DNA of 64,000 nt from contig NZ_CP119677.1 of the NCBI RefSeq assembly GCF_029318685.1, positions 1,714,001 to 1,778,000 on the forward strand, in the 5' to 3' direction. The notes beneath the pieces were generated by a model that searched no databases, was not told the origin of the DNA, and saw only the letters and a program-made list of their open reading frames with translations. This document shows, piece by piece, positions 15,658-64,000 of this stretch (position 1 is the first letter of the stretch; the number at the start of each line of letters is the position of its first letter). Position numbers and translations under genes: made by a program. This DNA comes from Ruminiclostridium papyrosolvens DSM 2782 (GTDB lineage: Bacteria > Bacillota > Clostridia > Acetivibrionales > DSM-1351).

Positions 15658-15782
15658 ACATAAAGTCCAAATTATAATAAGCAAAAAATGGTTTTTTCTT
15701 TAAGTAAAATTTGATAAAAAATATGTAGACTATTGTTGAAAAATATGATAGAATCATTTCCGGATAAAAAAACTTTTAAATT

Positions 15783-15876
15783 AGTCCAGAGAGGCTAGTA
15801 AGGGTATATATGGGAAAAGTGTATTTTAATGGATAGAGACCCTACCTTACTGCGCCTAGTCAGTAAGGTTTTTTTA
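15783..15876 (+). promoter_or_regulatory. PyrR-binding attenuator before the uracil permease
   Basis: AGTCCAGAGAGGCT at 15783-15796 matches the conserved PyrR binding loop of Bacillus and clostridial pyr leaders. It is followed by AGTAAGG (15797-15803), which is complementary to CCTTACT (15845-15851). That same CCTTACT is the 5' arm of a perfect 8-bp terminator (15845-15852 with 15861-15868) ending in seven T. So an antiterminator and a terminator compete, with PyrR plus UMP expected to favour termination. Confidence 0.88.
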
Positions 15877-15971
15877 TTTGCATAAATCAATTTTCGTATA
15901 TTGGATATGATTAGTATTATCATATTAGAAAATACGAGTTGATTAAAAAATTATTGGAGGGGATTTATACA

Positions 15972-39845: not shown

Positions 39846-41749
39846 GTGCGCCCAGTATGGGCGCAATCTAACGGGTGAAAGTCCCGAGTGCGGGCTAGTA
39901 GTGCCAAGCACATAGCCAAGAGCAAGGGTGTCCTTGGTGACGAGGAATCTGAAGAAAGCTGGAGGCAAACTTCTGGTCTGACGAACAGAAATCACATCAG
40001 GCATATTTAGGTCGGGTAAGGCTGCATAACAAGCCGAAGCCCAATAACTACTCGGAGCCTATGGTGTATATGTGGCAGGTAGATGGAAGGAAAGATTGCG
40101 CTCTTACCTGGGGAGGTCTCACGGACATGCAGAAACATAAAGTATGAAGCATGATTGAAATAAGATTTATCGTGAGAAGTCAGCCGAGGTCGTAGTACCA
40201 GATGAAGTCGACGCCATTTGGGAAGGACTGAACTTTAGGAGGTGAAAGTAAATGAATGTTACCAGAAGTGAATATAAGGACAGACAACCACAAAATAAGG
40301 GCTATCTGCAAAAGGTATCTGCGGAACAGAAAGAGTATGCAGAAGCGTCCGCTCACAAGAGGATAACTGAAAACAACATCACCAATACATACCTGTCGAC
40401 AGATGATTTATTGAAAAAGATATTGGGCAAAGACAATTTAAATGCGGCATTCAAGAAAGTAAAATCCAATAAAGGTGCTGGAGGAATTGATGAAATGGAG
40501 GTAGATGAACTTCTGCCGTATCTCAGAGAAAACCGAGAGCAGCTAATTCAAACAATCAGGGATGGCAAATACCATCCTAATCCGGTAAGAAGGGTAGAAA
40601 TACCAAAAGAAGAGAAAGGAAAAGTGAGAAAGTTGGGTATACCCACTGTTGTTGACCGAGTAATCCAACAGGCAATTTCGCAAATACTTTCACCGATATT
40701 TGAAACACAGTTTTCAGAGTACAGCTATGGCTTTAGACCGAAAAGGAGTGCGCATGATGCAATAAACCAATGCCAGAGGAATGTGAACGAGGGGTACAAA
40801 TATGTCGTAGATATGGACTTGGAGAAATTCTTTGACACAGTGAGCCAAAGCAAGCTGATAGAAGTACTATCAAGAACCATAAAAGATGGCAGAGTAATAT
40901 CACTTATTCATAAATATCTGAGGGCAGGAGTTGTTGTAAGGCATAAATTTGAGGAAACAGAAGTCGGCGTACCTCAAGGAGGACCACTAAGTCCGCTGCT
41001 CAGTAACATAATGCTGAATGAACTGGATAAGGAACTGACCGCGAGAGGACATAAATTTGTCCGCTATGCAGATGATAGTATGATATTCTGCAAAAGCAGG
41101 AAAAGCGCAGAAAGAACCCTGAATAACATCATACCGTTTATCGAAGGAAAACTTTTTCTGAAAGTAAACAGAGATAAGACAACGGTTGCACGCTACAAAG
41201 AGGTGAAATTTTTAGGATTTGCTTTTTATTGGAGCAAAGGGGAATACAGAGTCAGAATACACCCAAAATCAATCAGCAAGATGAAGCACAAAATAAGAGG
41301 ACTCACAAGTCGCTCAAACGGCTGGGGAAATGAACTCAGGGCGAATAAACTAAAACAGTATATTCAAGGCTGGATAAATTATTTCAGAAAAGCCGATATG
41401 AAAGGCTTGATGAATCAGACAGATGAGTGGATGAGAAGAAGGATAAGGATGGTATACTGGAAACAGTGGAAGAAAATCAAGACAAGAATTAAAATGCTCA
41501 TGCACTTCGGAATTGAAAAGCAGAAAGCATATGAGTTTGCGAATACAAGAAAAGGCTACTGGAGGATTTCCTGTAGCCCTATACTTAGCCGAACTCTTAA
41601 TAATGATACTCTAAAGAAATTAGGGTACATCTTCTTTTCGGATTACTATAAACAAGTACGTGTAAACTAGAGAACCGCCGTATACCGAACGGTACGTACG
41701 GTGGTGTGGAAGGTCGGTAGCTGAAATAATCAGCTACCTCCTATCCGAT
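39846..41749 (+). mobile_element. Group IIC intron, apparently complete
   Basis: The 5' end GTGCGCCCAGTATGGGCGC and the following domain I bases (AAGGGTGTCC, GAATCTGAAG, GGTCTGACGAACA) closely resemble Bacillus halodurans/Oceanobacillus group IIC introns. Domain V lies at about 41672-41708 and shows the class C catalytic CGC triad (ACCGCCGTA ... TACGGTGGT). Domain VI is a hairpin at 41712-41745 (GGTAGCTG with CAGCTACC). The 3' end is CCGAT at 41749. The intron contains a full reverse transcriptase gene in domain IV. It sits immediately after a terminator stem plus TTTAT, exactly the target rule of this class. Boundaries are read from motifs, uncertain by 1-2 bases. Confidence 0.92.
40252..41670 (+). 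CDS. ltrA: Group II intron reverse transcriptase/maturase (class C)
   Basis: 472-residue intron-encoded protein that helps the intron fold, splice and copy itself into DNA. RT blocks are in order: VKSNKGAGGIDEM, PNPVRRVEIPK and RKLGIPTVVDRVIQQAI, the YGFRPKRSAHDAI block, VDMDLEKFFDTV, GVPQGGPLSPLLSNIMLN, and the active site FVRYADDSMIF. Domain X (maturase) follows, with GWINYFRKADMKG and RRRIRMVYWKQWKK. There is no HNH endonuclease domain, as expected for class C. The frame is intact with a strong ribosome site (AGGAGGTGAAAG), so the element may be active. Confidence 0.96.
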   Translation: MNVTRSEYKDRQPQNKGYLQKVSAEQKEYAEASAHKRITENNITNTYLSTDDLLKKILGKDNLNAAFKKVKSNKGAGGIDEMEVDELLPYLRENREQLIQTIRDGKYHPNPVRRVEIPKEEKGKVRKLGIPTVVDRVIQQAISQILSPIFETQFSEYSYGFRPKRSAHDAINQCQRNVNEGYKYVVDMDLEKFFDTVSQSKLIEVLSRTIKDGRVISLIHKYLRAGVVVRHKFEETEVGVPQGGPLSPLLSNIMLNELDKELTARGHKFVRYADDSMIFCKSRKSAERTLNNIIPFIEGKLFLKVNRDKTTVARYKEVKFLGFAFYWSKGEYRVRIHPKSISKMKHKIRGLTSRSNGWGNELRANKLKQYIQGWINYFRKADMKGLMNQTDEWMRRRIRMVYWKQWKKIKTRIKMLMHFGIEKQKAYEFANTRKGYWRISCSPILSRTLNNDTLKKLGYIFFSDYYKQVRVN

Positions 41750-61788: not shown

Positions 61789-62580
61789 ATGACCGAAAAA
61801 GACAATCAAAAGTCAGTAGATATTTGGATGTTCAAGATATTAACTATAGTTTTGGTATTGACAAGTACTTTACTTGCTTTTTTCTGTATCAGGGTAAACA
61901 ATGTAGTTAACCAGTACAAAGAAAAATATAATAATGAATGTGCTCAATCCATGCTTATTATGAAATCGAATCAATCATTAACGACAAACACTAATAATTA
62001 TAAATCTCAAAGTGATGAACTAGGTAAACTTAACAAAGAACTTAAGAAACAAAATGAAGAGATAAAAAAACAACTTGAAGATTTGAAAAAACAAAATAAG
62101 CAATTGGAGTCTACAAAGAGGGAACTGGCAGATGATAATCTTCAGCTTCAGAAATCACTTAAAAAGGCAGCAGCGGTAGGTGTAAAACCTCAATCATACA
62201 AGATTTACAGTGGTGATAATCTTGAAAATAACAGCAAAAAAAAGTATATTGGTAAATTTCTTGGTACGGCATACACTCCATGTGCTGAGGAATGTGGAAA
62301 TAACAAGGGCATAACAAGCTCAGGTAAACCAATAGTACCGGGTGTATCCGTAGCAATAGATAAAACACATTGGCCTTATGGTACAATATTCTACATTAAG
62401 GGGCTGGGGTACACAATTGCTATGGACACGGGCAGTGCTATAAAAGGTAAAAACAGATTTGATTTTGCTGTATTGGATAAAAAGTTCGCATATGAGCTTG
62501 GACAACAATATTATGACGTGTACTTAGTAAAGATAGGAAACGGCAAGATTAATGAATCTATTATAACCAAATCGGCTTAA
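61789..62580 (+). CDS. Membrane-anchored 3D-domain protein with coiled coil
   Basis: 263 residues. One N-terminal membrane helix (WMFKILTIVLVLTSTLLAFF), a Lys/Glu/Gln-rich coiled coil at about 60-125, and a C-terminal 3D domain (about 155-250). The 3D fold is recognised by FLGTAYTPCAEECG, GVSVAIDKTHWPYGT and the three Asp of MDTGSAIKGKNRFDFAV, as in YocH, YabE and the MltA-like lytic enzymes. It probably cleaves peptidoglycan at the cell surface or acts as a cell-wall hydrolase accessory. Divergent from the ger operon (about 90 bp apart) and upstream of, so not controlled by, the c-di-AMP riboswitch. Confidence 0.87.
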   Translation: MTEKDNQKSVDIWMFKILTIVLVLTSTLLAFFCIRVNNVVNQYKEKYNNECAQSMLIMKSNQSLTTNTNNYKSQSDELGKLNKELKKQNEEIKKQLEDLKKQNKQLESTKRELADDNLQLQKSLKKAAAVGVKPQSYKIYSGDNLENNSKKKYIGKFLGTAYTPCAEECGNNKGITSSGKPIVPGVSVAIDKTHWPYGTIFYIKGLGYTIAMDTGSAIKGKNRFDFAVLDKKFAYELGQQYYDVYLVKIGNGKINESIITKSA

Positions 62581-62611
62581 ATAAAAGAATGTTAATAAAA
62601 ATCAGGAAATA

Positions 62612-62640
62612 TTGACTTATTTATAGAAATGGTATATACT
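62612..62640 (+). promoter_or_regulatory. Sigma-A promoter of the dapB leader
   Basis: TTGACT at 62612-62617 and TATACT at 62635-62640, spacer 17 bp. Transcription would start about 30 bases before the c-di-AMP aptamer. Confidence 0.8.
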
Positions 62641-62671
62641 AACAGTGGATTTAAGTCTAAAAATTAATAAT

Positions 62672-62800
62672 TTATCGCTGAATTATAGCAGTTTGATTGC
62701 TATAAGCGGGGGAACCATTTAATGGGGTGAATCCTGGATTACCAGGTAGGGTTAGTCTCTTACAACCCGAATCCGGCAGCTAACTTCGTAAGCGTTGGGG
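62672..62800 (+). ncRNA. c-di-AMP riboswitch (ydaO-yuaA class) before dapB
   Basis: The conserved ydaO core is present in order: CGCTGAA (P1 5' strand, 62676), GGGGGAACC, then AATGGGGTGAATCC, AGGGTTAG, CAACCCGAATCCGGCAGCTA and CGTAAGCG (P1 3' strand, 62787-62794). AGCGTTGG (62791-62798) can instead pair with CCAATGCT (62835-62842) to make an antiterminator. Ligand-stabilised P1 would free the terminator that follows, so it should be an OFF switch. Confidence 0.92.
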
Positions 62801-62836
62801 AGAAAGTGAATTTTTACATTATGTAATTTTCTAACC

Positions 62837-62870
62837 AATGCTACAGTTTACCTGTAGCATTTTTAAGTTT
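62837..62870 (+). terminator. Riboswitch-controlled terminator before dapB
   Basis: A perfect 10-bp stem (62837-62846 with 62852-62861, loop TTTAC) followed by a T-rich tail. Its 5' arm overlaps the proposed antiterminator pairing CCAATGCT (62835-62842), so the two folds exclude each other. Confidence 0.88.
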
Positions 62871-62950
62871 ATCCTTATTCATTTTCTTCAAAATTTAATT
62901 ATTCAATTTTAATTCTTACTTATAATTTGAAAGGGAGGGGAACTTATTTG

Positions 62951-63808
62951 ATGAAAGTTTGTATATCAGGCTTGGGCCGTACCGGAAAGGAAATTGCAAG
63001 GGCAATTTTAGCACAAAAAGAAATCCAGCTTGTTTCTGCTGTTTGCAGTCCGGGCAGTAAATCTTTAAATAAGGATTTGGGAGAAATTCTTGGAATGAAT
63101 AAAACAGGAATTACGGTTACCGGATCTGATAAACTGGAGGAAGTAATATTCAGAAATAAACCGGATGTTGTTATTGATTTCTCAAATCCCAAATCAGCGT
63201 TGAAAAATGCTTTAATTTTCTCAAGATATAGGATAAATATTGTAGTGGGAACTACAGGATTCTCAGATTATCAGCTTAAGAAGCTCTATGTAATTTGCAG
63301 AAAGTTCAAAAACGGCATTGTTTATGCACCAAACATAACTATGGGTGTAAATGTTCTGATGCTTCTGTCAAATCTAACAGCAAGTTTGCTAAGCAGCTAT
63401 GATTTTCAGATAACAGAGTTGCATCATAAAAACAAATTGGATTCACCATCGGGAACAGCTAAAAAAATAGCCGGTGAAATTCAGAGCGGTCTTTTAAATA
63501 AAGGGGTGGTGGTGTCACATAAAGACATCCCCATAAATTCTGTAAGGGCCGGAGGGGTAATAGGAAAGCATGAAGTAATGATTGTAGGTCAGGAAGACAA
63601 AATAGAAATCAGTCATGAGTCTTTTTCAAGAAAGGCTTTTGCACAGGGAGCAGTAAGTGCTGCGAAATTTATTCATAAGAAATCAGGGTACTATGAAATG
63701 AAGGATGTCCTTGATTTGGAAAAAGTATTAAAAACGTATATTGAAAATAATAACAAGTGGTCTTCAAAGCGCCACAACAAATATAATGCCAGACCGGCTT
63801 CAAATTAG
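62951..63808 (+). CDS. dapB: 4-hydroxy-tetrahydrodipicolinate reductase
   Basis: 285-residue DapB, which reduces (hydroxy)tetrahydrodipicolinate with NAD(P)H on the way to meso-diaminopimelate and lysine. In spore formers the same pathway branch feeds dipicolinic acid. N-terminal Rossmann motif ISGLGRTGKEIARA (the usual GRMG is GRTG here), IDFSNPKSALKNA, VVGTTGFSDYQL, then the catalytic stretch ITELHHKNKLDSPSGTAKKI with His and Lys. The C-terminal about 25 residues are an unusual basic, Asn-rich tail. Start ATG 62951, after GGAGGGG. Single-gene transcript under the c-di-AMP riboswitch; dapA and other lysine genes are not adjacent. The divergent loop residue leaves room for a paralog. Confidence 0.93.
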   Translation: MKVCISGLGRTGKEIARAILAQKEIQLVSAVCSPGSKSLNKDLGEILGMNKTGITVTGSDKLEEVIFRNKPDVVIDFSNPKSALKNALIFSRYRINIVVGTTGFSDYQLKKLYVICRKFKNGIVYAPNITMGVNVLMLLSNLTASLLSSYDFQITELHHKNKLDSPSGTAKKIAGEIQSGLLNKGVVVSHKDIPINSVRAGGVIGKHEVMIVGQEDKIEISHESFSRKAFAQGAVSAAKFIHKKSGYYEMKDVLDLEKVLKTYIENNNKWSSKRHNKYNARPASN

Positions 63809-63850
63809 AAAAAACAAGAACCCTGCTACTACTGGGTTCTTGTTTTTTTT
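63808..63850. terminator. Terminator after dapB (bidirectional)
   Basis: AAAAACAAGAACCC (63810-63823) pairs with GGGTTCTTGTTTTT (63834-63847), with A and T runs. The stop of the converging gene (63829-63831) lies in the loop, so this stem encodes its last residues. Confidence 0.9.
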
Positions 63851-64000
63851 GCTCTAAACATAAATTTAAAAAGATTTTTTATTATCAGTACGAGTTCGAT
63901 GATTACAAGAATACTTACAATCGCCATTAAATCCCTGTTTTCAGTAATAATATCTTTTATTTTTGTTCTGTAATCCTCTGGCGCTGAAACAGTCTTATCC
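63829..64000 (-). CDS. C-terminal end of a membrane protein (cut by the window edge)
   Basis: 57 codons of a minus-strand gene that continues past the right edge. The visible end is polar (DYRTKIKDIITENRD), then one membrane helix (LMAIVSILVIIELVLII), then a basic cytosolic tail (KNLFKFMFRAKKTRTQ). The stop is inside the dapB terminator loop. The open frame, polar-helix-basic layout and terminator support a real gene, but the family cannot be named from this piece. Confidence 0.6.
   Translation of the reverse strand, partial: DKTVSAPEDYRTKIKDIITENRDLMAIVSILVIIELVLIIKNLFKFMFRAKKTRTQ

Follow-up and report, generated by a model that had tools for sequence, protein, structure and literature searches.

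Why should a gene of the diaminopimelate (DAP) and lysine branch stand under the control of cyclic di-adenosine monophosphate (c-di-AMP), a signal best known for controlling potassium and the import of ready-made solutes? The question is raised by a locus near the end of a stretch of 64,000 nucleotides (hereafter the window) from Ruminiclostridium papyrosolvens DSM 2782 (NZ_CP119677.1, positions 1,714,001 to 1,778,000 of the forward strand; the genome is a single contig of 5.03 Mb), in which a c-di-AMP riboswitch lies in front of a dapB gene. We denote the product of this gene DapB2, a label used here for riboswitch-linked DapB, the name dapB1 being already in use in C. difficile. Our answer, which we hold at a probability of roughly two in three, is that DapB2 is a c-di-AMP-repressed DapB isozyme for osmolyte synthesis, with either an RNA or a protein as the sensor. 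The riboswitch itself is of a known class and had been read correctly in the original prediction, which was made from the letters of the window; the real surprise is the target, an isozyme within an osmotic regulon, together with the exchange of RNA and protein sensors.

The ydaO class assigned to the leader at the outset was upheld by the covariance search that had been named as its check, in which RF00379 matched over its full length at 102.1 bits against a gathering score of 38 (cmscan, E 3.8e-23). The alignment marks no non-standard pair and the core consensus bases are kept, and the RNA is on these grounds predicted to bind c-di-AMP and to respond to it. The expression platform is coupled to the aptamer stem P1, since the antiterminator, a helix of 8 bp including one G-U (62791-62798/62835-62842), uses bases that also form the P1 3' strand (62791-62794) and the first part of the terminator 5' arm (62837-62842). 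The minimum free energy fold of 62785-62845 reaches -19.3 kcal/mol (z -4.64) and contains an extra 7-bp helix (62801-62807/62826-62832). The terminator is a perfect 10-bp stem followed by TTTAAGTTTA, with 62833-62866 folding at -12.7 kcal/mol (z -6.25). Thus the terminator, the antiterminator with its shared bases and the OFF-switch anatomy ahead of dapB, all of them first proposed by reading the sequence, hold up in computation. The start of dapB2 is the ATG at 62951, and the listed open reading frame opens at a TTG at 62927.

Conservation within the genus speaks in the same direction. Among 11 aligned leaders, the CAATGCT of the antiterminator 3' arm is identical in 10, the outgroup L165 deviating, while the terminator 3' arm drifts, a pattern to be expected of a 5' arm that has two pairing partners to satisfy; the leader of G004 has a T in place of the first C of CCAATGCT. 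Being nearly invariant, the antiterminator pairs are consistent with a switch without furnishing proof by covariation. The sigma-A promoter of the original prediction also stands, its hexamers being kept as TTGAC(T/C)...TATA(C/A)T in 7 of 9 genus leaders (exceptions G003 and G007). Because a consensus scan of 61800-64000 finds 11 promoter-like sites against 9.0 expected, close to the chance number, the support for this promoter comes from conservation and not from its consensus. As had been stated, the upstream gene for a 3D-domain protein ends before the promoter and is outside the switch (Table 1).

Table 1. Coordinates of the dapB2 locus (window positions) and of the abl gene run in the source genome
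Feature	Position	Strand	Basis or remark
3D-domain protein gene, N-terminal membrane segment and coiled coil	61789-62580		Membrane segment and coiled coil both by eye
Sigma-A-type promoter TTGACT-17-TATACT	62612-62640	+	10/12 consensus matches; hexamers kept in genus leaders
c-di-AMP (ydaO) aptamer	62666-62809	+	RF00379, cmscan
P1 5' strand CGCU, pairs with AGCG 62791-62794	62676-62679	+	Rfam alignment, positions counted on sequence
Antiterminator 5' arm AGCGUUGG, beginning with the four bases of the P1 3' strand	62791-62798	+	Sequence, folds, alignment
Antiterminator 3' arm CCAAUGCU; 62837-62842 double as start of terminator 5' arm	62835-62842	+	Fold, alignment
Intrinsic terminator with a 10-bp stem (62837-62861), a 5-nt loop and a TTTAA tail	62837-62866	+	Terminator scan, fold
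Shine-Dalgarno-like AAGGGAGGGG	62931-62940	+	Read from sequence
dapB2, dapB paralogue, 4-hydroxy-tetrahydrodipicolinate reductase isozyme, 285 aa	62951-63808	+	TIGR00036, DapB_N, DapB_C
Hairpin ACAAGAACCC/GGGTTCTTGT and T-run past stop codon, probable terminator closing a one-gene unit	63814-63849	+	Read from sequence; loop of 10 exceeds limit of terminator scan
abl gene run: riboswitch, three-gene amino-acid ABC transporter, ablA, ablB, PII-like c-di-AMP receptor gene (PF06153)	L201 1172-5902; G000:C1:2444500-2451000	-	

The gene behind this switch is not the only dapB of the cell. Two DapBs of the source genome exceed the family cut-off. DapB2, at 213.4 bits with TIGR00036 against an equivalog cut-off of 122 and with both PF01113 (DapB_N) and PF05173 (DapB_C), is a predicted 4-hydroxy-tetrahydrodipicolinate reductase. 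The other, of 254 aa, belongs to a housekeeping dapA-dapB-ACT operon (G000:C1:1789.6-1791.9 kb, minus strand) about 12 kb from dapB2, which sits behind a lysine riboswitch (RF00168, 118 bits); with this second dapB under lysine, the c-di-AMP-switched gene becomes an accessory isozyme. In the tree, DapB2 and housekeeping DapB form separate clades (Shimodaira-Hasegawa-like approximate likelihood ratio test 100), and DapB2 is not grouped with dapA-linked DapB. The closest named-species match to the window protein, among the matches listed, is from R. papyrosolvens C7 (96% protein identity); a search of viral contigs with the DapB2 protein gave no match.

Is the pairing of riboswitch and paralogue peculiar to this strain? 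The original prediction had pointed to related Clostridia as the place to look for it, and there it proved to be regular. Our linkage survey covered 60 related genomes, the source genome included, and defined DapB2 matches by at least 58% identity, which yielded 42 matches in 39 genomes, all 39 also having a housekeeping match. For 40 of the 42, an RF00379 match lies 103-573 nt upstream on the same strand (median 163, by script on the listed coordinates); a 41st riboswitch (G032:C140) was located in a further RF00379 listing, and the remaining match is the 3' half of a gene split by a contig end, with the riboswitch lying ahead of its 5' half on a different contig. A c-di-AMP riboswitch is thus found upstream of 41 of 41 DapB2 genes keeping their 5' side and of 0 of 59 housekeeping matches, a control that took in 150 of the 182 RF00379 matches and then the full listings of the 20 genomes with the remaining matches, none of which lay near a housekeeping dapB. 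Conversely, under strict filters, a lysine riboswitch occurs within 4.5 kb upstream of at least 48 of the 59 housekeeping matches versus none of the 41 DapB2 genes. Likewise under strict filters, and among the matches listed, the dapB2 riboswitch is the sole RF00379 match in G033, G039, G047, G049, G051 and G055.

The neighborhood was surveyed more widely by a search of genome contigs with 29 DapB2 query proteins, which gave 301 relatives; the best 80 of the 301 (79 loci) were analyzed, the neighbor gene clusters being named through representatives by Pfam and NCBIfam. In the 72 loci with at least 41% identity (L166, L167 and L169-L173, at most 37%, were left out), we found 43 with the riboswitch only, 22 with a promoter operator only, two with both devices (L119 from C. 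magnum and L143 from Clostridium sp. OS1-26) and five with neither. The riboswitch (model R1) is therefore upstream in 45 of the 72; a 46th match at 32 bits, below the Rfam cut-off and left out of the tally, occurs in L129 (C. carboxidivorans) and is a probable riboswitch remnant. In 36 of the 45 riboswitch loci (7.6 expected) a terminator separates the aptamer from the gene. The distance from the end of the aptamer to the gene is 8-9 nt in L119 and L143, a spacing suggestive of translational control.

The operator, a palindrome ACAACTT-N13-AAGTTGT around the -10 box, was spotted by eye in the riboswitch-less loci and is present with at most two mismatches in 22 of these 27, in 2 of the 45 riboswitch loci and at about 0.1 per 71 shuffled upstream regions. 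Since the motif was derived from the same loci, these counts describe it and are no independent test, the more independent support being the neighboring BusR discussed below. Among the five loci with neither device, L123 lies at a contig edge, L135 has a riboswitch fragment by eye, L145 has an operator with three mismatches and L146 a poor operator with an adjacent BusR gene, L154 being the fifth. An exact operator copy is found only at the dapB2 promoter in G068 and G064, among the matches listed. The palindrome was also considered as an RNA hairpin, a candidate that was rejected, its first arm lying upstream of the likely start site.

A protein partner for the operator is suggested by the company it keeps. 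A GntR-TrkA_C (BusR-family) gene occurs in 12 of the 22 operator-only loci and in both double loci, versus 0 of 43 riboswitch-only loci (operator-only against riboswitch-only, Fisher p 1.6e-7, relatedness ignored); in 11 operator-only loci it adjoins dapB2 and in L122 it is two genes off. Somewhere in the genome, a BusR gene is present in 17 of 17 operator-only genomes searched versus 10 of 36 riboswitch-only ones (one species counted twice), and the source genome carries one beside an OpuCA-type gene. The three neighbor rows scanned all have the GntR and RCK_C/TrkA_C Pfam domains, and the one row searched against structures is a full-length match to S. agalactiae BusR (7B5T/7B5Y/7OZ3; 7b5t at 134.5 bits, residues 7-203). 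The half-sites are mostly (A/G)AC and GT(T/A/C), 23 bp apart, or 22 bp with an N12 spacer as counted from the pattern, and the outer left triplet of 25 operators is AAC in 12, GAC in 7 and another in 6. Operators also occur in front of opuC beside BusR in L220 (two copies; dapB2 is absent from that locus), between BusR and opuC in L210, where dapB2 lies two genes on with its own operator, and before a dapB-like gene in L218. Judged by domains and neighbors, BusR is a candidate for binding at the dapB2 operator.

BusR sites in S. agalactiae consist of two 5'-GAC-3' half-sites 22 bp apart (Bandera et al. 2021, PMC8517857); this exact site was tried as a description of the clostridial operators and fails for most of them. 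In a Brevibacillus metagenome-assembled genome (L169, 2682-4747), a dapB gene with no more than 34% identity has a BusR-family gene upstream and an exact operator whose spacer is N12, possibly an independent recruitment.

How often has the device changed? The tree was made by a quick method and has noted long branches; L123 and six of the seven low-identity loci were left out (L169 was kept), with five housekeeping rows, and L143 entered as a shorter open frame. With double loci counted as present and L135 and L169 left out, riboswitch presence changes 5 times, at least 3 of these being forced by starred branches; the count is 6 with all 73 rows and 3 without ten further deep or long rows. A change here is a gain or a loss, the count giving no direction. 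We consider it probable, with somewhat less assurance than our reading of DapB2 itself, that Clostridia have retained a dedicated osmotic DapB under c-di-AMP, whereas the device exerting this control has switched repeatedly, from the riboswitch to a BusR-type repressor at a promoter palindrome or the reverse.

The partners of dapB2 across relatives are osmotic ones (ablA/ablB, OpuC, BusR and the Na+ riboswitch). In 13 of 43 riboswitch-only loci and in 0 of 22 operator-only loci, dapB2 is followed by the gene for lysine 2,3-aminomutase (ablA), for the acetyltransferase (ablB) or for both; in L103 three genes intervene. Among 12 genomes with AblB over cut-off, dapB2, ablA and ablB are by coordinates consecutive in 8, one of which, G032, has opuC genes between them. 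An OpuC-type osmolyte transporter (cluster c7) is nearby in 1 of 43 riboswitch-only, 4 of 22 operator-only and 1 of 2 double loci, and a Na+ riboswitch precedes the c-di-AMP riboswitch in 3 of 16 loci scanned (L102, L106 and L108). In the source genome, AblA (TIGR03820, 616 bits) and AblB (TIGR03827, 276 bits) are both above cut-off, with ablA-ablB apart from dapB2 and behind a different one of the five c-di-AMP riboswitches in that genome; G035:C6:37826-42647 is arranged similarly, with such a riboswitch some 2.6 kb ahead of ablA-ablB. In view of these partners and of the second dapB behind the lysine riboswitch, the proposal of the original prediction that c-di-AMP limits the cell's meso-DAP supply is not supported as it was worded.

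We propose the following course of events. With c-di-AMP high and no osmotic need, the aptamer would be bound, P1 would hold 62791-62794, the hairpin at 62837-62861 would form and RNA polymerase would stop. c-di-AMP drops under hyperosmotic stress, and upon such a fall 62791-62798 would pair with 62835-62842, so that the terminator would be blocked and dapB2 transcribed. DapB2 would then set the flux of the DAP/lysine branch by osmotic state and not by lysine level, while lysine would govern the housekeeping DapB, keeping growth lysine separate from osmotic lysine-branch flux. DapB2 would most likely feed lysine-derived compatible solutes, namely N-epsilon-acetyl-beta-lysine where ablA-ablB are present, as in the source genome. 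Across Clostridia the link of signal and gene would stay and the sensor would vary, being either a riboswitch (mostly terminator-based, in a few cases seemingly working through the ribosome-binding site) or else a repressor of the BusR family. High c-di-AMP is likewise taken as a sign of no osmotic distress by White et al. (2022, PMC9337991).

Several observations weigh against this picture and have to be set beside it. As to the solute, 10 of 11 Ruminiclostridium genomes carry dapB2 with its riboswitch yet lack ablA/ablB over the family cut-off, and in G043:C10:99070-100751 an intact riboswitch-dapB2 is followed by truncated fragments of ablA and ablB, two genes that are apparently being lost. 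Acetyl-beta-lysine therefore cannot be the sole purpose of dapB2, whose broader effect under osmotic stress may be an increase in lysine or DAP. The co-occurrence of AblB and DapB2 is weak (DapB2 in 11 of 12 genomes with AblB versus 28 of 48 without, p 0.04, relatedness ignored), and the gain in flux from a second DapB lacking an adjacent second DapA or aspartokinase is not explained. As to the protein sensor, operator spacing in most loci is 1 bp off the published 22-bp BusR spacing, and 7 of 10 scanned BusR loci away from the DapB2 promoter, including that of the source genome, have no operator at two mismatches or fewer (one of these, L208, is cut by a contig end). Nor is the operator, at the same tolerance, above a reversed control genome-wide in 19 genomes, so that we claim no large regulon. 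As to the RNA, the terminator 5' arm clearly pairs with the P1 3' strand in just 11 of the 36 terminator loci (5 Ruminiclostridium and 6 other) and not in the other 25 (mean pairing 8.7 versus 7.2 shuffled), in which the terminator arm, often of AAAGCUGCAGA type, might pair with the aptamer CAGCU instead.

The strongest competitor, though clearly the less likely account, is that c-di-AMP tunes meso-DAP for peptidoglycan through DapB2, with low c-di-AMP raising DAP under turgor stress, and peptidoglycan is indeed offered by White et al. (2022) as a reason for the link of riboswitch and dapB. Three of the five c-di-AMP riboswitches of the source genome precede genes for SH3/NlpC-P60-like secreted proteins (by eye), and the ten Ruminiclostridium genomes with DapB2 and without the acetyl-beta-lysine genes leave this alternative its weight. 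A D,D-carboxypeptidase gene (Peptidase_S11, one member scanned) neighbors dapB2 in 18 of the 79 loci, but in Ruminiclostridium it lies downstream in convergent orientation and in Acetivibrio it is a gene of its own upstream, a placement that looks more like synteny than like an operon. The operon partners identified for those dapB2 genes that have any are ablA/ablB and OpuC; among the 26 neighbor clusters listed, neither a Mur cluster nor a further Dap cluster was recognized (unclustered genes being unnamed), and the housekeeping DapB can already serve the wall.

Improbable, and a step below wall supply, is a change of chemistry by which DapB2 would have shifted its cofactor or substrate, becoming for example NADPH-only or reducing another cyclic imine turned osmolyte. 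What invites the thought is residue 32: of the 72 DapB2 rows, 71 have a letter at this position and all 71 show Cys, versus Asp in 20 of 21 housekeeping rows. The solved DapBs shown have D or E at the aligned position, and in E. coli DapB this acidic residue contacts the cofactor ribose. The HH-x-x-K, PSGT and GTTG motifs are nevertheless kept in nearly all DapB2 rows, the second His of HH-x-x-K being Phe or Tyr in 14 of 72, and the window protein, which passes the TIGR00036 equivalog cut-off, has the catalytic and substrate residues HHxxK and PSGT.

A spore role, in which DapB2 would feed dipicolinate or cortex synthesis, is very unlikely. The dipicolinate function suggested by the original prediction found no support past the nearby ger genes: the window has a GerA-type operon 1-7 kb upstream, and in Ruminiclostridium loci some genes near dapB2 look ger-like by eye (clusters c6 and c11). 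Among the 79 loci the ger-like clusters are confined to those of this genus, the regulators are osmotic (c-di-AMP riboswitch, BusR and Na+ riboswitch) and the promoter is of sigma-A type. Least credible of all is a decayed or idle riboswitch with dapB2 driven from elsewhere, for although no terminator was seen between the 3D gene and the leader, so that read-through is possible, such RNA would still cross the terminator, and neither the aptamer core nor the bases of the switch show damage, both being conserved across the genus, with 41 of 41 genes linked.

If our reading of DapB2 as an osmotic isozyme is true, c-di-AMP steers the biosynthesis of an osmolyte (or wall precursor) by choice of isozyme, the housekeeping copy remaining under lysine. 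The dapB2 loci, riboswitch-only, both and operator-only, with several named cultured species among them, would moreover form a natural series for studying how a regulatory link survives the replacement of its sensor.

Further observations were made on the way. In the window, the 3D gene (cluster c10) precedes dapB2 only in Ruminiclostridium loci; positions 39931-40228 hold two adjoining group II intron fragment matches (RF02001, 138 bits; RF01998, 47 bits), and a leader with a PyrR binding site (RF00515, 59.6 bits) lies at 15769-15878. Cluster c3, which codes for a small GGDEF protein bearing a ribbon-helix-helix tail, is found beside dapB2 in 11 of 79 loci, and a gene of this kind, by eye, also lies beside the abl riboswitch of the source genome (L201 6161-6475, minus strand). 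In five Acetivibrio-type loci of the 16 scanned (L110, L116, L117, L161 and L168), a c-di-GMP-I riboswitch occurs about 1.5-3.2 kb downstream of dapB2 on the minus strand. Aminomutase-like genes below the AblA cut-off, possibly for glutamate 2,3-aminomutase, start about 300-650 nt downstream of RF00379 matches in G011:C349, G015:C3, G016:C36, G020:C71, G037:C222 and G038:C49.

How does this locus compare with known systems? Our literature search, with most subscription literature outside its reach and earlier notice of such pairs likely, found only White et al. (2022, PMC9337991) linking the riboswitch to dapB, and, mostly from listings, no mention of DapB paralogy or of BusR control of dapB. 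White et al. describe Na+ and c-di-AMP riboswitches arranged in tandem, in front of dapB in Acetivibrio cellulolyticus and of ablA in Dehalobacter sp. CF, and propose an osmoprotectant or peptidoglycan role. The c-di-AMP riboswitch before dapB and the osmoprotectant reading are shared with our system, as is the Na+ element in L102, L106 and L108, whereas cmscan gives no Na+ riboswitch over cut-off at the window dapB2 locus; their available text treats dapB as a pathway-enzyme gene and mentions no second DapB, lysine-riboswitch counterpart, dapB2-ablA-ablB operon or BusR. In Salinicoccus halodurans (PMC4685198), DAP genes including dapB have likewise been proposed to serve an acetyl-lysine solute, N-alpha-acetyl-alpha-lysine, but there a whole DAP cluster is involved, it is heat-induced, and the text available mentions no c-di-AMP link. 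In a Leptospira operon, dapA-dapB precede cdaA (PMC12974146).

With the S. agalactiae BusR of Bandera et al. (2021), the clostridial neighbor shares the domain plan, a full-length match, a two-part spaced operator and, in several loci, nearby osmolyte ABC genes; it differs in being mostly divergent from dapB2, in half-sites that are mostly (A/G)AC at 23 bp (22 in L169 and in one L220 copy) and in a binding that is predicted. With the ydaO/yuaA class (RF00379) at large, finally, the window element has in common the full aptamer, a P1 sequestering antiterminator bases, control by a terminator and the OFF logic, and it stands apart in that its target is a dedicated dapB paralogue and that the expression platform varies in related loci.

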